DNA of 64,000 nt. Source: Hymenobacter oligotrophus. GTDB taxonomy: Bacteria; Bacteroidota; Bacteroidia; Cytophagales; Hymenobacteraceae. The position numbers were made by a program, and so were the translations under genes. The notes under the pieces are model-generated. The model saw only the letters and a list, made by a program, of their open reading frames with translations, did no database searches and was not told the DNA's origin. The DNA lies in NCBI RefSeq assembly GCF_003574965.1, contig NZ_CP032317.1:2604001-2668000 (forward strand), given 5' to 3'. This document shows positions 41,073 through 62,983 of the stretch, piece by piece. Positions within the stretch are counted from its first letter, which is position 1. Each line of letters opens with the position of its first letter.

Positions 41073-41147
41073 GGCTGCGTAGTTCAACGGATAGAATAGG
41101 CGTTTCCTAAACGCTTGATATGGGTTCGATTCCCGTCGCGGCTACCA
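41073..41147 (+). tRNA. tRNA-Arg (anticodon CCT)
   Basis: A 75-nt cloverleaf is present. The acceptor stem is GGCTGCG with CGCGGCT (G1-U72 and U4-G69 wobbles), the D-arm is GTTC...GAAT, and the anticodon stem is GGCGT/ACGCT with loop TTCCTAA (anticodon CCT at 41106-41108). The T-arm is ATGGG TTCGATT CCCGT, with discriminator A and an encoded CCA. It reads AGG codons. Its first 31 nt come from the integrated element (attR), and the host promoter now lies 5.1 kb upstream at attL. Confidence 0.93.
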
Positions 41148-54980: not shown

Positions 54981-55025
54981 AAACAACCCGACCGGACTCC
55001 TAAGCAGAATCCGGTCGGGTTGTTT
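54981..55025 (-). terminator. Strong terminator closing the micro-ORF transcription unit
   Basis: A 16-bp perfect stem (AAACAACCCGACCGGA with 55010-55025) starts 18 bp past the last micro-ORF stop. On the minus strand it is followed by TTTTTGG. Confidence 0.85.
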
Positions 55026-55042
55026 GTGCGGCGGGGCTAGGC

Positions 55043-55126
55043 TTAGAGCGTGGCGCGCAACCAGCGGCGCTGGGTGCGGCGCCAAGGCCGGGCCGCCAAA
55101 ACAGGGAAGCTAAGGATGGTTTTCAT
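55043..55126 (-). CDS. Arginine-rich micropeptide 1 (27 residues)
   Basis: The ORF starts MKTILSFPVLAARPWRR, is followed by TQRRWLRATL, and stops with TAA. Net charge is about +7 with no acidic residues. From the AARPWRR core to the C-terminal Leu it aligns without gaps with micropeptide 2; 13 of 17 positions are identical, and five further codons differ only synonymously, which suggests selection on protein. It is the last of three ORFs behind a sigma-54-like promoter and just before a strong terminator. It has no secretion signal of the standard type, although its first half is hydrophobic. The family is not one I know. Confidence 0.65.
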   Translation of the reverse strand: MKTILSFPVLAARPWRRTQRRWLRATL

Positions 55127-55186
55127 GGCTTGGGGTAGGGTTTGGAGCGGGTTGATACGTGGGGGCGGCCAGGAGCGCACGCGGCC

Positions 55187-55267
55187 TTACAGCGCGGCGC
55201 GCAGGTAGCGGCGGGTGGCGCGGCGCCAGGGGCGGGCGGCAGTGCGGAGGGTTTGGGCAGTTTTCAT
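55187..55267 (-). CDS. Arginine-rich micropeptide 2 (26 residues)
   Basis: The ORF starts MKTAQTLRTAARPWRR and ends ATRRYLRAAL followed by TAA. Net charge is about +8 with no acidic residues. It shares MKT at the start and AARPWRR-x-x-RR-(W/Y)-LRA-(T/A)-L at the end with micropeptide 1, 60 nt further downstream. Such a peptide could form a cationic amphipathic helix. It has no signal peptide. Whether it is exported by the nearby MacB-like ABC system, acts on the membrane, or acts inside the cell cannot be read from sequence. Confidence 0.65.
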   Translation of the reverse strand: MKTAQTLRTAARPWRRATRRYLRAAL

Positions 55268-55316
55268 AGCGGTACAGGGTTGAAGAGTGCGAAATAACAG
55301 TGGGCGCGTGCGGCTA

Positions 55317-55451
55317 TCAGCGGCCGCAAAGCGCGGAGTTGCGGGGAGTTGCCGGGTTTATCCGAACCCGCGTCTCGCCCGTGGCCCGCAGGGCCGGCAA
55401 GGGGCGGCGTTGGGGTTGGCTGGTGCTGCGGAGGGCGCGGTGCGTGTTCAT
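55317..55451 (-). CDS. Arginine-rich micro-ORF 3 (44 residues), first in the unit
   Basis: This is the first ORF after the sigma-54-like promoter, with an ATG about 27 nt from the predicted transcription start. It begins MNTHRALRSTSQPQRR and continues PLPALRATGETRV. Net charge is about +8. It agrees with micropeptide 2 at Met1, Thr3, Leu7, Arg8, Ser/Thr9, Pro13, Arg15 and Arg16, and has LRA five residues later, so it may be a diverged copy that lost its original stop. The similarity is weak, so translation is less certain than for the other two. Confidence 0.45.
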   Translation of the reverse strand: MNTHRALRSTSQPQRRPLPALRATGETRVRINPATPRNSALCGR

Positions 55452-55486
55452 TTTTGTGCCGGTTGTGTGTGTTCCTGACTAGTATT

Positions 55487-55504
55487 AGCCAATGGCCGTG
55501 CCAA
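55487..55504 (-). promoter_or_regulatory. Sigma-54-like promoter of the micro-ORF unit
   Basis: On the minus strand the site reads TTGGCACG-N4-TTGGCT. It resembles the sigma-54 consensus TGGCACG-N4-TTGC, with G instead of C at the -12 position. It is identical outside the N4 to the promoter at 62876-62893, and both have the same operator exactly 64 bp upstream. Confidence 0.75.
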
Positions 55505-55568
55505 ACTTGTAAAACATTGTTTTACAGCTATTTATAAGCTATTTTGATTTAACTAGATTCACAAAATG

Positions 55569-55594
55569 TGTCCGAAATCGAACACGGTGTTCGG
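55569..55594 (-). promoter_or_regulatory. Activator-binding site (UAS) of the micro-ORF unit
   Basis: A 26-bp site composed of TGTCCGAAATCGAACA and the overlapping GAACACGGTGTTCGG, two overlapping dyads. It matches the site at 62958-62983 at 23 of 26 positions. It is the probable target of the sigma-54 activator encoded at 57.5-58.9 kb. Confidence 0.75.
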
Positions 55595-55763: not shown

Positions 55764-57131
55764 TCAGGCCGGGGTAGCGGGCACGGGGCTTTTGGCAACA
55801 GGGGCGCTGGGCACCGGAGCGCCGGTGGCGCTAGCCAGGCCAATGGAAAAGGCCGTGCGGCCGTTGGGCTGCGTGGCCAGGCTAAACGGAAAGCCGTGGT
55901 GCAGCAAAATGTCGCGAATCATGGTGAGGCCAATGCCCTGGCCGTCGCGCTTCGTGCTGAAGAAGGGCGTAAACAAGTGCGGCTGCACTTCGGCGGGTAT
56001 GCCGGGGCCGTCGTTCTCGATGACTACCGCGGGCGGCTGCGCGCTGGTGCGCACCCACAGGTGGCCGTCGTGGTCGATGGCTTCGAGGGCGTTTTTGCAG
56101 ATGTTCAGCAGGGCCTGCTCCATTTGCTGCGCATCGAGAGCCACGTACAACGGGCCGGGCGCCAGCTCCCAGTGCCACTTAATGTTGCGCTTCTCGCTTT
56201 GCACTTGCAACAGGCGGCACGTGGCTTTCAGCAGCTCATGCACGTCGGTGGGGCGCGGGGTGGGCGCGGGCAGCCGCACCAGGTTGGCAAAGCTGGCAAT
56301 AAAGTTGGCCAGGTGCGTATTGCGGTTTACCGATACATCCAGGGCTTCCTCAAAATCGGGGCGGTCGTCTTCGGCCAACTGCGGGGCATAGTACCGGAAC
56401 GACTGCAGAATGGAGTTGACGGCGCCGATGGAGTTGTTTATCTCGTGCGACATCATCCGGATGAGCTTTTCGTAGGCTTGCTTTTCCTGCCGAATGAGCT
56501 CTTGCGTCAGCTCTTCCAGCAAAATAAAGTAGCGTGTAAAACCCCGGTCGAGGAAGTGCGAGGTGCTGGCCCGGTACGTTTGCATGCCCGAAAGCTGCAC
56601 CACCTGCGGCTGCCCGGCCTGCAGCGCACCTAGGGCGCGGCCCCACTCGCCGGGCAGCTCGGCGGGCCGTCTGCCCAGCAGCTCGGCCGGAGGCAGCTGC
56701 AGGCAGCGCTCGGCCGCCGGGTTCAGCGACTCAATAGTGCCGTCGAAGCTCAGCAGCAGAATGCCCGCCGGCGAAGCCGCAATCAGCCGCTCCAACAGGT
56801 AGCTTTTTTCGTGCTGCGTGATGCGCTCCTGCCGCAACTCGTCGATCATGGTGTTGTAGGTGTCAATCAGCTGATCCATTTCCGTTTGGCCCACGGGCAA
56901 AAACTTCATGGTGAAATCGCGCGAGCGAATGGCCTGCGTGCCGGCCGCAATCAGGTTGAGGGGCCGCACAAAGCCACGGTACAGTTGAACGCTGATCCAG
57001 GCCGTAACGACCAACAGCCCCTCGGTGACAAAAAACAGCCAGGTTTTGGAGGCCAGAAACTGAACCGCCAGCACCGCAATGGCTACCTGAACCAGCGTAA
57101 CGAACAGAATGTACTTGGCGCGTAAGCTCAT
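55764..57131 (-). CDS. Membrane sensor histidine kinase (HAMP-PAS-HisKA-HATPase)
   Basis: Two N-terminal membrane helices (YILFVTLVQVAIAVLAVQFLA and WLFFVTEGLLVVTAWISV) lie close together, so there is almost no periplasmic domain and the signal is probably sensed within the membrane. HAMP follows (about 50-105), then a PAS domain (LLERLIAASPAGILLL). HisKA carries His229 in RMMSHEINNSIGAVNSIL. The ATPase domain has NICKNALEAI, ENDGPGIP and FFSTKRDGQGIGLTMI. This NtrB-like kinase pairs with the sigma-54 activator gene just upstream on the same strand. A proline/alanine-rich tail ends the protein. A family C repeat separates the two genes. Confidence 0.95.
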   Translation of the reverse strand: MSLRAKYILFVTLVQVAIAVLAVQFLASKTWLFFVTEGLLVVTAWISVQLYRGFVRPLNLIAAGTQAIRSRDFTMKFLPVGQTEMDQLIDTYNTMIDELRQERITQHEKSYLLERLIAASPAGILLLSFDGTIESLNPAAERCLQLPPAELLGRRPAELPGEWGRALGALQAGQPQVVQLSGMQTYRASTSHFLDRGFTRYFILLEELTQELIRQEKQAYEKLIRMMSHEINNSIGAVNSILQSFRYYAPQLAEDDRPDFEEALDVSVNRNTHLANFIASFANLVRLPAPTPRPTDVHELLKATCRLLQVQSEKRNIKWHWELAPGPLYVALDAQQMEQALLNICKNALEAIDHDGHLWVRTSAQPPAVVIENDGPGIPAEVQPHLFTPFFSTKRDGQGIGLTMIRDILLHHGFPFSLATQPNGRTAFSIGLASATGAPVPSAPVAKSPVPATPA

Positions 57132-57207
57132 GCGGAGTGGTTGAGAGGCGCTGCGGTGCGCCGTAAAATCGTATCAGCTGTCAGGCTGCCCCGTCGATCC
57201 TCGCAAC

Positions 57208-57398
57208 GGTCATGCCGAGCGCAGTCGAGACACATCTGGCGTGCTGACGGTAGATAGCATTGTCATCCTGACGAAGGAAGGACCTTATCACGTTAGGACC
57301 TCAAACGTGCCTCCTGCGGGGCAAGCCTCTCTACAAGACAGGTAAGCGGTTTGCACCTAATGTCAGCACCCCAGATGTCTCGCTCTGCTCGACATGAC
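57208..57398. repeat. Inverted-repeat element, family C, copy 1
   Basis: The left end GTCATGCCGAGCGCAGTCGA and the right end (complement of GTCATGTCGAGCAGAGCGAG) form imperfect terminal inverted repeats of about 37 bp. The interior includes TGTCATCCTGACGAAGGAAGG. It lacks coding capacity, like a miniature or REP-type element. Confidence 0.7.
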
Positions 57399-57473
57399 AA
57401 CACGATCGGGCGAGATGCCTCGACGGGGCTTGGCGTTACGTTCTTACTTCCTGGTTCAACGTCAGCAACGAAC

Positions 57474-57492
57474 GGGCGCGTGCAACGCGCCC
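57474..57492 (-). terminator. Short hairpin at the end of the sigma-54 activator gene
   Basis: GGGCGCG at 57474-57480 pairs with CGCGCCC at 57486-57492, immediately after the stop codon. There is no clear T-tract, so termination may be weak. Confidence 0.45.
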
Positions 57493-58881
57493 CTACTGAG
57501 CGTGGTCGAAGGGGATGTTAAATTTTTCGAGGCGGCGGTACAGGGCGCCGCGGCTCAGGCCCAGGGCTTTGGCCACGCGCGAGAGGTTGCCGGCATAAAA
57601 ATCCACGGTTTTGCGGATCATCTGAGCCTCCATCTCGTCGAGCGTCATCAAGCCTACTTCGGGCAGGGCGCCGGGCTCCGCAGCCTTGGTGCTGCGCTGC
57701 GCCTGCGCCTGAAACTCCTCGGGCCCGAGCTCATCCTTGCCGCTTACCAGCACGGCGCGCTCCACCAGGTTTTTCAGCTCCCGAATGTTGCCGGGCAAGG
57801 GCTGCTCGCGCAGCCAGTGCAGGGCGCGGGTGTTCACCTTCAGGGCCGGGCGGTTGTAGGCCGTGCGCAGGTTGTTCACAAAGTGCTGGGCCAGCAGCGG
57901 CACGTCGTCGGGCCGCTCGCGCAGGGCGGGCAGGCGCACCGTAATTAGGTTGATGCGGTAAAACAAATCCTCGCGGAAGCGGCCTTCGCGCACTTCCTGG
58001 GCCAGGTCGCGGTTGGTGGCGCAGATGACGCGGATGTCCAGGGAGCGGCTGCGCGAATCGCCGAGCACCTCGTAGGTACGGTCTTGCAGCACGCGCAGCA
58101 GCTTCACCTGCGAGCCCATGTCCAGCTCGCCAATTTCGTCGAGGAAAATGGTGCCGCCGTTGGCCATTTCGAAGCGGCCCTGGCGGTCGGCTTTGGCATC
58201 GGTGAAGGCGCCGCGGCGGTGGCCGAACATCTCGCTCTCGAACAACGAGGCCGAAATGCCGCCTAGGTTTACCTTCACAAAGGGCTTGTTGCGGCGGTGC
58301 GAGTTCAGGTGAATGGCCTCGGCAATGAGTTCCTTGCCCGTGCCCGATTCGCCCTCGATGAGCACCGAGGCATCGGTGGCGGCTACTTGCCCTACGCTGC
58401 GCAGCACCTGCAGCAGCTGGGCATCCTGGCCCACAATGTTCTTGAAGTTGTACTGCCGATCGAGCTGGCGGCGCGTGGGGCTCACTTCGTCGTCGGGGTG
58501 CGCGGCGTGGGCCTCGGCCAAACTGATGACGGTACGGATGGTTTGCAGCAGCGAGTCGTTGTTCCAGGGCTTGGTTACGAACTCGGCCGCGCCGGCCTTC
58601 ATGCCCTCCACAGCCAGCGAAATGGAGCCCCACCCCGTGATAAGAATTACAGGCACCTGCGGCGCTACCTCTTTAACCTGACCTAGGAGGCGCAGGCCGT
58701 CCTCGCCGGTGGTGGCCATGGAGTAGTTCATGTCCATGAGCGCCAGCTCGGGCGGCGTTTCGCGCACCACGCGCAGGGCTTCTTCGGGGGTGCCCACGGC
58801 CTTGGTGGCGTAGCCGGCTTGCTTCAGCAGCAGCCCCAGCGAGGTGCGCACGGCTATGTCGTCGTCGACAATAAGTATCAT
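57493..58881 (-). CDS. Sigma-54-dependent response regulator (NtrC family)
   Basis: The receiver domain starts MILIVDDDIAVRTSL, with Asp50 in LALMDMNYSM as phospho-acceptor and Lys in FVTKPW. The AAA+ domain has Walker A GESGTGKEL, the sigma-54 contact loop as GAFTDA (instead of GAFTGA), Walker B GTIFLDEIGEL and the arginine region LFYRINLITVRLPALRER. The C-terminal Fis-type helix-turn-helix is NLSRVAKALGLSRGALYRRLEKF. It is thus an activator that needs RpoN. The start at 58881 is the conserved beginning of the receiver. Its likely binding sites are the two 26-bp dyads at 55.57 and 62.96 kb. Confidence 0.96.
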   Translation of the reverse strand: MILIVDDDIAVRTSLGLLLKQAGYATKAVGTPEEALRVVRETPPELALMDMNYSMATTGEDGLRLLGQVKEVAPQVPVILITGWGSISLAVEGMKAGAAEFVTKPWNNDSLLQTIRTVISLAEAHAAHPDDEVSPTRRQLDRQYNFKNIVGQDAQLLQVLRSVGQVAATDASVLIEGESGTGKELIAEAIHLNSHRRNKPFVKVNLGGISASLFESEMFGHRRGAFTDAKADRQGRFEMANGGTIFLDEIGELDMGSQVKLLRVLQDRTYEVLGDSRSRSLDIRVICATNRDLAQEVREGRFREDLFYRINLITVRLPALRERPDDVPLLAQHFVNNLRTAYNRPALKVNTRALHWLREQPLPGNIRELKNLVERAVLVSGKDELGPEEFQAQAQRSTKAAEPGALPEVGLMTLDEMEAQMIRKTVDFYAGNLSRVAKALGLSRGALYRRLEKFNIPFDHAQ

Positions 58882-58954: not shown

Positions 58955-59254
58955 AACTCCCCTGCTCAAACGAGGAGGGGTGCCCGCAGGGCGGGGTGGT
59001 TGATAGTCGTTGGCACGATACTACCTAGGGCAATTTGGCCGTCATGTGGAACTTCAAAACGGTCATGTCGAGCAACCAGCCTGTCTTGTCGAGACATCTC
59101 GCGTGCCGACGCTCGAGAATAATTACTGTCCGGCGAGATGTCTCGACAAGCTCGACATGACGGGCTATTGGTTGAGGTTGCTATCTGACGCGAGGCCAAC
59201 CACCCCAGCGGCAGCTGAAGCTGCCGCGTCCCCTCCTCAGCTGAGGAGGGGAGC
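58955..59254. repeat. Composite inverted repeat, family B, copy 2 (interrupted by family C)
   Basis: The left half (AACTCCCCTGCTCAAACGAG, then GGGGTGGTTGATAG) and the right half (CCAACCACCCC, then CCCCTCCTCAGCTGAGGAGG) match copy 1 at 34.47 kb. The two halves are separated by about 100 bp that is itself a family C element. It fills the spacer between the ABC permease and the activator gene. Confidence 0.8.
59062..59161. repeat. Inverted-repeat element, family C, copy 2, nested in family B
   Basis: The left end is GTCATGTCGAGC, an insertion of 12 bp, then TTGTCGAGACATCTCGC. The right end is the complement GCGAGATGTCTCGACAAGCT with CGACATGAC. It lies within the family B copy and interrupts it. 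Confidence 0.75.
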
Positions 59255-59265
59255 TTGCTGGGCGG

Positions 59266-60468
59266 CTACTCTTCGCGCAGGGCTACGGCGGGCTGAATGG
59301 CAGCAGCCAGGCGGCTGGGCTGCCAGGCGCAAATGGCCGTGAGCAGGTAAATGATGCCCGTGGCCATCAGCATAGCCAACAAGTACACGCGCACCGGCAC
59401 CTCGAAAGCAACGAGCAGCGGAAACTGCACCGCCAACACCAGCCCCAGCGCCACGCCCAGCGAGGTAAGCACCAGCATTTCGGTTAAAAACTGCGAGCTG
59501 ATGTCGGAGCCCGTGGCGCCCAACGCGCGGCGCAGGCCCACCTCGGCGCGGCGTTGGCTGATGTTGTACCACAACACCCCAAACAGACCTAGGGCCACGT
59601 TGATAATCAGGAACAACCCTACCACCGACAAAGCCACAATGGGTGCCACCGTTACCTTCAGCTTGTCGACGCGGTCGGCCTCCAGGGTGTACACCTCGGT
59701 GCTCCATTTGCGCGTTACGCCGGCCACGGTTTTCACGATCTTTTGCTGCAGCTCGGCGCCTTGGCCGGGGGCTACGCGCACGAGCACGGCGGCGCCCTCC
59801 CACTGCGTGGTATCGTGGGGCACGAGGCGCATCCACATGCTGGGGCTCACGTCGCTGAACTCGCTGTGCACGCGCACGTCTTCCACCACGCCCACCACCT
59901 GGTAATGTTCTTTGGCGGGGTCGCCGTAGCGGGCATCGGGGCGCACCACCTGGCCCAGCGCCGCCTTGGTGGTACCAAAGAGTTTTTCGCTCATGTTGCG
60001 CGTAATCACGGCGGGGCGGTGCGTGGCCGCGTCGTCGGTGCTCCGGAACCAGCGGCCCTCGAGCAGCTGCAGGCCCATGGTGGCCGCATAGTGGTCGTCG
60101 GCGTCGTAACGGTCTACGCTCTCCATTTTTACCTTGTTTTCGGCCACAAAGTCGCCGTTCATCGTGATAAAGCGGAAGGGCGTGTTGGGGCTGGTTAAGG
60201 TAAGCTCCTGCACGCCGGGCAACGCCCGCACTTGGCGCAGCACATCGTCGAGCACGGGGCGGGGCATTTTTTCGCCTTGGCCGGCGGCAATATTCAGGCG
60301 CCACACCTGCTCGTGGCGGAAGCCCGGCGGCAGCAGGTAGTTGTGGCCTACCGTAACGAGCACCACCCCGACGGCAAATAGCACGATAAACGAAAGGAAA
60401 ATTTCGCTGAGCAGCAGCACATTGGTGCGCTTGCGGTTCCAGATCAGGCGTAGCAGATGACGAAACAT
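59266..60468 (-). CDS. MacB-like ABC transporter permease (second)
   Basis: Topology is one N-terminal helix (VLLLSEIFLSFIVLFAVGVVLV), a large periplasmic MacB core domain (about residues 45-260), and three C-terminal helices of the FtsX type (VALSVVGLFLIINVALGLFG, MLVLTSLGVALGLVLAVQFPLL, MLMATGIIYLLTAICAW). The motif RRAEVGLRRALGAT is the usual cytoplasmic coupling segment, and the protein ends with QPAVALREE. I used the ATG at 60468; the 47-codon extension upstream is not membrane-like. It forms a heteromeric transporter with the next permease and the ATPase, acting as a periplasm-to-outside mechanotransducer or exporter. Confidence 0.93.
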   Translation of the reverse strand: MFRHLLRLIWNRKRTNVLLLSEIFLSFIVLFAVGVVLVTVGHNYLLPPGFRHEQVWRLNIAAGQGEKMPRPVLDDVLRQVRALPGVQELTLTSPNTPFRFITMNGDFVAENKVKMESVDRYDADDHYAATMGLQLLEGRWFRSTDDAATHRPAVITRNMSEKLFGTTKAALGQVVRPDARYGDPAKEHYQVVGVVEDVRVHSEFSDVSPSMWMRLVPHDTTQWEGAAVLVRVAPGQGAELQQKIVKTVAGVTRKWSTEVYTLEADRVDKLKVTVAPIVALSVVGLFLIINVALGLFGVLWYNISQRRAEVGLRRALGATGSDISSQFLTEMLVLTSLGVALGLVLAVQFPLLVAFEVPVRVYLLAMLMATGIIYLLTAICAWQPSRLAAAIQPAVALREE

Positions 60469-60574
60469 GGCCGGGAGGAGGGTTGTCAGGGGTAGGTAGT
60501 CAGTTGTGAGTTGGTGGCAGCGGAGCACGGCCGGGTTGGGCCGGCGCCGCTGCCCACGGTCCTTTTCGGCTTGC

Positions 60575-61834
60575 TTATTTGGGGCCGCTGCCACTGCCGC
60601 GCAGGGCATCCACCGGGTTTAGGCGGGCCATTTTCCAGGCGGGGTACACGCCGCTCATCAGCCCGAAAATTACCGTCAGACCTAGGCCCATCGCGAAGGC
60701 CCGCCAGCTCAGCCCGAAGTGCGAATGGGCAATAAACTGCGACTCGTTGAGCAGCTGCAGCACGCCCGCCGCCAAGGCCAGCCCGAGCAGCCCGCCCAAG
60801 GCCGTGAGCACCAGGTTTTCGGTCAGGAACTGCCCTACCAGCACCGAGCGCGAAGCGCCAAAGGCTTTGCGCACCCCTATTTCGCCGGCGCGCTCCATAA
60901 TGCGCGTCACGTTCAGGTTCACGAGGTTCAGGGCGGGCAACAGCATGAACAGCAGTGCCAGCACGCTGCACCCCGTCAGGAACAGGGCCATGCCGTCGTC
61001 GTCGGACTCCTGGTTGCCGGTAAACTGCCGCACCACGCTGGCCAGGGCGGGGTCGGCGTGCGCGTACAGCTTGTCGTAGCGGGCGGGGTCGGGCAGCGGC
61101 ACGCGCCGCATCATCTGCTCAAACTCTTGGCGCACGGCTGGCACGGCCGCCGTTGAGGGCGCCAGCAGAATAACAAAGTACTGGCCGTCGTAGCGCTTGT
61201 CCTCGATGCTGCTTGCGTTGAGGGTGTAGGGCAGCCACACATCGGCGCTGGTGTACAGCCGAATGGCCGGTACATCGGGCACTACGCCCGTTACGCGGTA
61301 GCGGTGCGGGCCGATTTCGAGCGTGCGCCCGGCGGCACCTTTTTCTGTGCCGAAAAACGAGCGCGCCGTGCGCCGGCTGATCACGCACACGCGGGCTTTC
61401 TGGTCGATTTCGGCGGCGCTGTAGGTGCGGCCCTCGAGGAAATCGAAATCCATTACGCGCCAGAAATTGTGGTCGGTGTGGCGCACACTCAGCGTAAGGG
61501 TTTTGTTGCCGGCAAAAGCGGTAGCGTTGCTGCCAAGCGACGCCATCGCCACGGTTTCGGGCGTCTTCATCGAGCGCACGTACGTGTCGACGAAGTGGGC
61601 GCTGGCGGGCGTGTTGCTGTAGCCGCCGTCCTTGAAGCGCTGGCAGAGCAGGTTCACGAACAGCATGCGGTCCATGTGCTTTTCGGGCTTGTGCGAGCCG
61701 TTAAAGTGGTCGATGGCGGCCACCAGCACGAGCATCACCATCAGGGTGAAGCTGATGCCAAACAGGCTGATGAAGGTGAAGAACTTGCGGCGCAAGAGCA
61801 CCTTCCAGGCAATTTTCAGGTAGCTAAGCAGCAT
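60575..61834 (-). CDS. MacB-like ABC transporter permease (first)
   Basis: Same architecture as its downstream neighbour: N-terminal helix (FISLFGISFTLMVMLVLVAAI), periplasmic MacB-PCD domain (VDTYVRSMKTPETVAMASLG ... FFGTEKGAAGRTLEIG), then three helices with the coupling motif RAGEIGVRKAFGAS and the C-terminal PAWKMARLNPVDALRG. The two permeases are only distantly alike, suggesting a heterodimer. Its start overlaps the end of the small membrane-protein gene by 11 bp. It belongs to the operon that begins at the sigma-54-like promoter at 62.88 kb. Confidence 0.95.
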   Translation of the reverse strand: MLLSYLKIAWKVLLRRKFFTFISLFGISFTLMVMLVLVAAIDHFNGSHKPEKHMDRMLFVNLLCQRFKDGGYSNTPASAHFVDTYVRSMKTPETVAMASLGSNATAFAGNKTLTLSVRHTDHNFWRVMDFDFLEGRTYSAAEIDQKARVCVISRRTARSFFGTEKGAAGRTLEIGPHRYRVTGVVPDVPAIRLYTSADVWLPYTLNASSIEDKRYDGQYFVILLAPSTAAVPAVRQEFEQMMRRVPLPDPARYDKLYAHADPALASVVRQFTGNQESDDDGMALFLTGCSVLALLFMLLPALNLVNLNVTRIMERAGEIGVRKAFGASRSVLVGQFLTENLVLTALGGLLGLALAAGVLQLLNESQFIAHSHFGLSWRAFAMGLGLTVIFGLMSGVYPAWKMARLNPVDALRGSGSGPK

Positions 61835-62027
61835 AAATCGTGGGGGCAGAAGAAGGTTGGGGGGTAACCTGAAGCGCGGGCATGGCTGCCGGGCGGGCCG
61901 CGGGCCGCTCCGGCCTAGGGGGCGCGGCCGGCCGCGCGCGGGCCGTGAGGTCGTAGAGGCCGGCGCCGGCCATTAGCAGCAGCAGGGCGGCCATCAGTAG
62001 CGCCGCGGCTTGCAGTACCCGTTTCAT
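61824..62027 (-). CDS. Small single-helix membrane protein in the ABC operon
   Basis: The 67-residue ORF begins MKRVLQAAALLMAALLLLMAG, a signal anchor or uncleaved helix, then a proline-, alanine- and arginine-rich tail (ARARPAAPPRPERPAARPAA). It lies between the ATPase gene (22 bp away) and the first permease (11-bp overlap), so it is tightly built into the operon. I do not know the family. It could be a periplasmic accessory peptide of the transporter or a secreted small protein. Translation is supported mainly by the tight spacing and the N-terminal hydrophobic design. Confidence 0.6.
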   Translation of the reverse strand: MKRVLQAAALLMAALLLLMAGAGLYDLTARARPAAPPRPERPAARPAAMPALQVTPQPSSAPTIYAA

Positions 62028-62048: not shown

Positions 62049-62792
62049 TTAGTTTACTTGGCTGCCGTCGAAGAAGCGGATGACCCGCTCCGTTTTCAGG
62101 GCCATGTTCTCGTCGTGCGTTACCATCACAATGGTGGTGCCCTCTTCGCGGTGCAGGCTCAGCAGCAGGTCCATGATTTCCTCGCCCATCACCGAGTCGA
62201 GGTTGCCGGTAGGTTCGTCGGCTAGGATAATTTCGGGGGCGCCGGCCAAGGCGCGGGCAATGGCCACGCGCTGGCGCTGCCCGCCCGATAGCTGCGACGG
62301 AAAGTGCTTGGTGCGGGCGCTCAGGCCCACTTTCTCGAGGGCCGCGAGGGCGCGCTGGCGGCGCTCTTTGCCGCCCATGCCCGCGCGGTACAGCAGCGGC
62401 AGCTCCACGTTATCGAGCACCGAGAGGTCGTTGATCAGGTGGAAGCTCTGGAAGATGAACCCAATTTTGTGGTTGCGCAGCTTGGCCAGCTCCTTGTCGG
62501 AGTAGCTGGTTACGGCCCGCCCGCCTATCTCGATGGTGCCGCTGGTGGGCTCGTCGAGCAGGCCCATCAGGCTCAGCAGCGTTGACTTTCCGCAACCCGA
62601 CGGCCCCATAATAGACACGAACTCGCCCCGGTTAATCGTTAGGTTTACGCGGTTCAGCGCCACCGTCTCGATGGTATCGGTTTGGTACACCTTCTCCACG
62701 TCGGCGAGCTTGATCATGGGCGTGTTTTTCAACGACGTGGCGGCGCGCGGGCCGGTGGCGAGCGAGGGGCTTTGGGTCAGGGTCGGTTCCAT
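62049..62792 (-). CDS. ABC transporter ATP-binding protein (LolD/MacB type)
   Basis: Walker A is MGPSGCGKSTLL, the Q-loop FIFQSFHLINDLSV, the signature LSGGQRQRVAIARAL, Walker B IILADEPTGNLDS and the H-loop MVTHDENMA. This is the LolD/MacB subgroup that powers FtsX-like permeases. A 25-residue N-terminal extension precedes MIKLADVEKVY, where an alternative ATG (62717) exists. It is the first gene of a four-gene minus-strand operon (ATPase, small membrane protein, two permeases). It is preceded by a sigma-54-like promoter and an upstream activator site, so it is probably induced through the kinase/activator pair encoded downstream. Confidence 0.95.
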   Translation of the reverse strand: MEPTLTQSPSLATGPRAATSLKNTPMIKLADVEKVYQTDTIETVALNRVNLTINRGEFVSIMGPSGCGKSTLLSLMGLLDEPTSGTIEIGGRAVTSYSDKELAKLRNHKIGFIFQSFHLINDLSVLDNVELPLLYRAGMGGKERRQRALAALEKVGLSARTKHFPSQLSGGQRQRVAIARALAGAPEIILADEPTGNLDSVMGEEIMDLLLSLHREEGTTIVMVTHDENMALKTERVIRFFDGSQVN

Positions 62793-62875
62793 GGGCGGTC
62801 GGGGTTTGTTTTCAGTAAGTTGCGCCGGTGTGCTGTCCGGTTTTGTGCAGCAGCAAAGCGGGTTCCCATCACAGA

Positions 62876-62893
62876 AGCCAAGCGGCGTGCCAA
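62876..62893 (-). promoter_or_regulatory. Sigma-54-like promoter of the ABC operon
   Basis: On the minus strand TTGGCACG-N4-TTGGCT, identical outside the N4 to the site at 55487-55504. The expected start of transcription is near 62864, about 70 nt before the ATPase ATG. Confidence 0.75.
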
Positions 62894-62957
62894 TTGCAAA
62901 AGTTGTTGTTTATCAGCTTATTACCCCAACATCCCTTCATCAGCCCAACCAAAATAT

Positions 62958-62983
62958 TGTCCGGAACCGGACACGGTGTTCGG
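62958..62983 (-). promoter_or_regulatory. Activator-binding site (UAS) of the ABC operon
   Basis: TGTCCGGAACCGGACA is a perfect 16-bp palindrome that overlaps a second dyad GGACACGGTGTTCGG. The site ends 64 bp before the promoter, the same distance as at the micro-ORF unit. An extra half-site TGTCCGG occurs at 62834. Confidence 0.78.

Follow-up and report, generated by a model that had tools for sequence, protein, structure and literature searches.

A unit of putative arginine-rich microprotein genes behind a sigma54-type promoter signal in Hymenobacter

One short unit in the window (the whole stretch of 64,000 nucleotides of Hymenobacter oligotrophus DNA analysed here) appears to consist of microprotein genes under selection, not merely of a small RNA. 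The evidence supports this reading because the frames are gap-free among relatives, dN/dS is low and amino-acid changes are few; two of the genes are clear paralogues and one is more distant. The evidence likewise supports the view that the unit is headed by a promoter signal that marks a regulon of sigma54/NtrC type. Both the microprotein family and the regulon outlined here appear to be new: among the matches listed from the open-licence PMC literature, no paper concerned these peptides or this regulon.

The micro-ORF unit and its coding evidence

Three ORFs on the minus strand, all with ATG starts, lie where the sequence-only reading had placed them: ORF1 (55317-55451; 44 aa, with the skeleton MNT...LRAxG...VR...LCGR), ORF2 (55187-55267; 26 aa, MKTAQTLRTAARPWRRATRRYLRAAL) and its paralogue ORF3 (55043-55126; 27 aa, MKTILSFPVLAARPWRRTQRRWLRATL). 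They are bounded on one side by a palindrome and a sigma54-type promoter, and on the other by a hairpin (54982-55024, minus strand); no additional gene lies inside the unit and no longer gene follows within it, so that it holds no immunity gene. The hairpin had been described as a terminator with a 16-bp stem. A hairpin is indeed present, but it has 20 pairs, with a T-rich stretch after it, and it can be called terminator-like by fold only, because a consensus terminator scan (seven sites listed) did not include it.

Codon reading confirmed that the block shared by ORF2 and ORF3 contains five synonymous codon differences. The kinship proposed for ORF1 holds in part: in three genomes it resembles the 26-mer (ORF2) beyond shuffles (P 0.004, 0.0005 and 0.0095), but not the 27-mer (ORF3; P 0.36, 0.095 and 0.82). 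The peptides are strongly basic, as had been said, with a computed charge of +7 to +8. Arginine makes up 16-27% of residues across 11 peptides (ORF1 and the ORF2- and ORF3-like MKT types) and 22-27% in the MKT peptides; because the DNA is GC-rich, arginine richness by itself is weak evidence. The MKT peptides have GRAVY values of -0.31 to -0.82, and inspection by eye found no long hydrophobic stretch in them. For the 14 C-terminal residues the hydrophobic moment is 0.65-0.78, a value reached by 3.4-7.6% of shuffles, which is a marginal signal of an amphipathic C-terminal helix.

Relatives were drawn from a genus sample of eight genomes (that of the window, G000, plus G001-G007) and a family sample of 204. 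Three of the eight (G000, G007 and G004) carry all three ORFs and were aligned. In this alignment each ORF is 70-89% identical with zero gaps, and the spacers between ORFs are 43-65% identical overall; taken in turn, spacer 1 is 43-57% identical and gap-free, spacer 2 is 57-65% identical with 3-12 gap columns, and spacer 3 is 47-74% identical with 1-3 gap columns. The spacer between palindrome and promoter is 44% identical, and the terminator region is 91% identical between G000 and G007 and 45-50% in the other pairs. The 5' leader, too, has stayed similar (63-80%, without gaps), so some of the conservation is non-coding; the palindrome region stands at 70-78%.

The pattern of substitution points the same way as the absence of gaps in the ORFs. 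Pooled dN/dS is 0.35, 0.40 and 0.37 for the three genome pairs, which share branches and hence are not independent. Amino-acid differences number 23, 26 and 22, against 34.8, 40.4 and 32.4 expected under random placement (P 0, 0 and 0.0002; that is, 0, 0 and 1 of 5000 draws). By the same test taken singly, ORF2 gives P 0.0014-0.016 and ORF3 P 0.007-0.027 (0 to 0.0042 against G006); ORF1 gives P 0.048, 0.0024 and 0.165, and taken alone is weakly supported as coding. Comparison of ORF2 with ORF3 inside one genome gives P 0.041, 0.005 and 0.20. No such signal appears in four of the five other frames (P 0.39-0.92). In the fifth, an antisense frame interrupted by stops, changes are again scarce (P 0 to 0.018), which would follow if this frame reflected the wobble positions. 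The sequence-only reading thus stands on two of the three counts that it had itself put at risk, conservation of the frames in relatives and a nonsynonymous rate below the synonymous.

Its remark that it knew of no described family agrees with the searches. The three window ORFs have no Pfam match at 0.1, and the seven MKT peptides match no Pfam family even with E allowed up to 10, a search in which the HMMER filters drop most weak matches. Neither NCBIfam nor PHROGs supplied a convincing family, the latter giving one ORF1 relative at E 0.17. A PDB profile search returned six weak matches (E 0.013 and up), judged unrelated.

The shared promoter signal and the neighbouring genes

The activator site and promoter proposed earlier were both found, on the minus strand. 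The palindrome CGAACA-CCG-TGTTCG (55568-55593), with a third half-site GGACA, lies 65 bp ahead of a sigma54-type promoter (55487-55503, TGGCACGGCCATTGGCT); the regulon signal is accordingly written as palindrome, 65 bp, TGGCACG-N4-TTGGCT. The usual sigma54 -12 element is TTGC (consensus TGGCACG-N4-TTGC); here it is TTGG. The promoter sequence occurs twice in the window, ahead of the micro-ORF unit and ahead of the ABC ATPase gene, and in both cases the palindrome is 65 bp upstream. This identical signal before the ABC operon (62876-62983, minus strand, with the promoter at 62876-62892) supports the co-induction with an ABC system that had been suggested. In the 65-bp spacer (55504-55568), short A/T motifs are conserved every 6-8 bp or so near the promoter, perhaps as a phased bend.

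All the neighbouring genes considered are on the minus strand. They are a sensor histidine kinase with HAMP, PAS and HATPase domains (55764-57131), an NtrC-type response regulator (57493-58881), and the ABC operon, comprising an ATPase (62049-62792) and two FtsX/MacB-type permeases (60575-61834 and 59266-60468). The kinase has two N-terminal hydrophobic segments close together; its hydropathy profile is suggestive of two membrane segments joined by a very short loop, although the second of them is weak. Adjacency and the shared signal point to the response regulator as the presumed activator of the regulon. A sigma54 gene is present in the window's genome, and Sigma54_DBD scores over cut-off in 8/8 genus genomes. 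A small hydrophobic ORF (MKRVLQAAALLMAALLLL..., 61824-62027, minus strand) lies between the ABC ATPase and a permease, overlapping the permease start, and is present too in G004, G005, G006 and G007. Repeats of the form ATGTCGAG...GACATCT lie between genes (57150-57480 and 59050-59200) and resemble dispersed intergenic repeats.

With up to 3 mismatches allowed, a fixed pattern (two half-sites, 65 bp and the promoter, with TTGG required within its mismatches) found 35 sites in the eight genus genomes, 30 of which need no more than 2; the reversed control found 5. Some of the weakest of the 35 look like chance. The unit of G006 is missed because its spacing is 64 bp; its ATG comes one base earlier, and it lies outside the set of 67 sites described below. 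Sites that were followed lead into an HlyD-type adaptor, the ABC operon, a MarR gene then an outer-membrane receptor gene, and also small proteins with signal-peptide-like starts; a few lead elsewhere. Pfam supports MarR, receptor, HlyD and TolC-type protein (OEP) with one example each, and gave no family for the secreted-type example. In wider Hymenobacter-like genomes the signal stands ahead of HlyD, ABC and secreted-type genes; several matches there to the promoter sequence only fall inside genes or are without the palindrome. A group of paralogous genes for small secreted-type proteins, with no Pfam family, sits elsewhere in the window's genome (G000:C1:3023000-3034500); at least one of these genes follows a degenerate form of the signal (3 mismatches).

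A further conserved element, G..C.AAA..GGACA, is found in the transcribed region, in the window at 55443-55460 (minus strand, AAAAATGAACA, where it takes in the ORF1 start codon) and at about 62834-62850; it could serve as an operator downstream of the promoter, or act in the mRNA. Of 67 distinct promoter sites, a set chosen from fetched loci, 49 have GRACA at a distance of precisely 55 bases from where the promoter starts. With promoter classes assigned by a loose pattern, the start codon is inside the element in 23/23 HlyD, 3/3 micro, 2/16 secreted-type, 0/18 ABC and 0/6 MarR cases.

Distribution among relatives

In a DNA search of the eight genus genomes, G007 and G004 match across most of the unit (76% and 72% identity), G006 matches 63 bases, G002, G003 and G005 give only 30-41-base matches, and G001 gives none. 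On translation, G000, G007 and G004 each yield a pair of MKT peptides, against a single 27-mer in G006, where a stop two codons upstream leaves the MKT start as the sole possible ATG start; ORF1 is found in all four. A profile of the MKT peptides, run over the 204 family genomes, made seven matches, in four genomes, with E no higher than 2.1e-12. Since these seven rows are the ones from which the profile was built, high scores were to be expected; the informative figure is the next-best match, at only 4.4e-5. The ORF1 profile returned its own four rows at E 4.7e-18 or better, plus one weak match (7e-4). Judged by strong matches, then, the distribution of the microproteins is restricted, to 4 of 204 family genomes. 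The weak MKT-profile matches (E 4.4e-5 and up) were set aside: 26 loci were scanned, and none had the combined palindrome and promoter signal, even with 4 mismatches allowed.

In a sample of 390 genomes from the order, matches at 1e-5 were confined to G000 and G007; the draw was evidently without G004 and G006, because both match in the family search. A strict DNA pattern, applied to a named genome collection that may omit the genomes closest to the window's own, gave two records, Solirubrum puertoriconensis MC1A and Hymenobacter sp. 15J16-1T3B; the named-genome search with tblastn confirmation found no relative.

The unit adjoins the kinase gene in all four genomes that carry it. Regulator and kinase, combined in one tree, place G000, G004 and G007 in a single clade (97/96) and G006 with G002 and G003 (100/99), both without the unit; at least two changes are therefore needed. 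In G002, G003 and G005 the kinase gene is directly followed by the apparent equivalent of the gene after the unit in G006, so that loss of the unit and separate gain are both possible. A tree that included the permeases was set aside because permease alleles seem to have been exchanged. The operon permeases (59266-61834) seemingly come in two allele types, one in G000, G005 and G007 and one in the others, in disagreement with the regulator-kinase tree, a pattern that suggests recombination.

What the microproteins may do

The account to which we lean, tentatively and somewhat short of an even chance, is that these peptides are amphipathic, stay in the cytoplasm and adjust the membrane machinery of the two-component system next door; which component they would act on is guesswork. 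That is, once the kinase had been activated, envelope stress being one conceivable cause, the exporter genes and the micro unit would be turned on together by the response regulator and RpoN; the microproteins would remain in the cytoplasm, where the conserved C-terminal half, RPWRRxxRR[W/Y]LRxAL, would form a short cationic amphipathic helix; this helix would dock either on the inner membrane face or on a membrane protein that offers an acidic stretch, for which the neighbouring kinase and the FtsX-type pump are the likeliest candidates, and the activity of that protein would be tuned as feedback. We infer helix formation, docking and feedback from the helix moment, the kinase hydropathy and precedents in the DUF1127 proteins. 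With a kinase homologue (E<=1e-60) in 181/204 family genomes and the microproteins in 4/204, the system also works without them.

DUF1127 (PF06568) includes YjiS, three Agrobacterium proteins and CcaF1; its members are, like the MKT peptides, very short and arginine-rich, with several paralogues in some genomes, and some bind a sensor kinase or RNA. According to an excerpt of PMC12501420, the Agrobacterium sensor kinase PhoR, itself without a periplasmic sensor, is a binding partner of three small DUF1127 proteins that are rich in arginine, and arginine averages 14% in DUF1127 (16-27% in the peptides here). An excerpt of PMC11707872 describes inner-membrane association for YjiS, with a two-component system among its interactors. 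By sequence the peptides here are not DUF1127 members: none of the seven matches Pfam, they are shorter, and they occur in Bacteroidota, grouped in one unit that adjoins a kinase gene.

The same precedents allow for RNA as the partner. Arginine-rich helices might bind stress RNAs or mRNAs, in the manner of Rhodobacter CcaF1, termed a small RNA-binding protein in an excerpt of PMC10253847, and the arginine content of the MKT peptides agrees with this; but the conserved aromatics and the hydrophobic face would suit a membrane or protein surface equally, and we regard the idea as fairly unlikely. It is very unlikely that the unit is mainly a small regulatory RNA, or its ORFs leader peptides, with the coding signal secondary. 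The transcript is short, its folding z is -1.79 (5/100 shuffles as good) and the 5' leader is conserved without gaps; against this, the ORFs are gap-free and spacers 2 and 3 are gapped, the inter-ORF spacers are more diverged, selection sits in the sense frame, no longer gene follows in the unit, and the sole Rfam match in the window at gathering score is a tRNA elsewhere (41073-41144). Most improbable is that the ORFs are what decay has left of HlyD or secreted-protein genes, namely their N-terminal parts, with the promoter kept. The ATG does stand at position 53 in 3/3 micro units counted and in 23/23 HlyD promoters (ABC 0/18), and ORF3-type peptides resemble a profile of HlyD N-termini (one of 22, aberrant, dropped) with P 0.0065-0.021 in three of four cases; but ORF3 of G007 gives P 0.17, ORF2 P 0.16-0.27 and ORF1 P 0.44-0.66 (three genomes, the fourth unscored), and the low values of some single pairs, such as P 0.001 with one HlyD and 0.003 with one secreted protein, come from many pairs tried. 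Since the stop positions are kept in the genomes compared and the ORFs are under selection, they are not decaying at present. Descent from HlyD N-termini or from signal peptides was likewise set aside, since the tests, inconsistent across ORFs and genomes, did not show it.

Another proposal sends the peptides out of the cell: being cationic and leaderless, they would pass through the ABC/HlyD/TolC-type pump of the same regulon and either target other cells or serve as a signal. Tandem paralogues of 26-27 aa, Trp/Arg-rich, leaderless, with a charge of +7 to +8 and in the same regulon as an exporter, would be suited to this. The leaderless bacteriocins aureocin A70 and enterocin L50 likewise comprise several cationic peptides without leader; aureocin A70 has four, of 30-31 aa, in the part of PMC6131525 consulted. 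The ATPase does score for peptide-exporter models, though below cut-off and about as well for LolD. The MKT peptides, known here from sequence, are however far more hydrophilic than the multi-peptide leaderless bacteriocins (GRAVY -0.31 to -0.82, against 0.53 to 0.71 for aureocin A70 in the same excerpt), and their unit is without an immunity gene; the limit is not sharp, as the excerpt gives -0.109 for the two-peptide enterocin MR10B. The kinase, moreover, is far commoner than the peptides, and the ABC operon accompanies it in 13/13 neighbourhoods fetched. On balance export is unlikely. The phenol-soluble modulins of Staphylococcus offer a further likeness, as short leaderless amphipathic tandem peptides with two-component control and an ABC exporter; they are less basic and more hydrophobic. 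Quite unlikely is the fuller version, a Gram-negative leaderless multi-peptide system under sigma54 control, exported by the co-regulated pump and sensed by the nearly loopless kinase; if it were true, microproteins, pump and kinase would form a self-reinforcing peptide signal or weapon.

Whichever account holds, the signal, the likely activator, the kinase, the pump and genomes with and without the unit are all available, and microprotein function is therefore directly testable. Microproteins of fewer than 30 residues with comparative evidence of selection and a defined regulatory signal seem to be few in Bacteroidota. The analysis also outlines a putative sigma54-type regulon in Hymenobacter-like bacteria.
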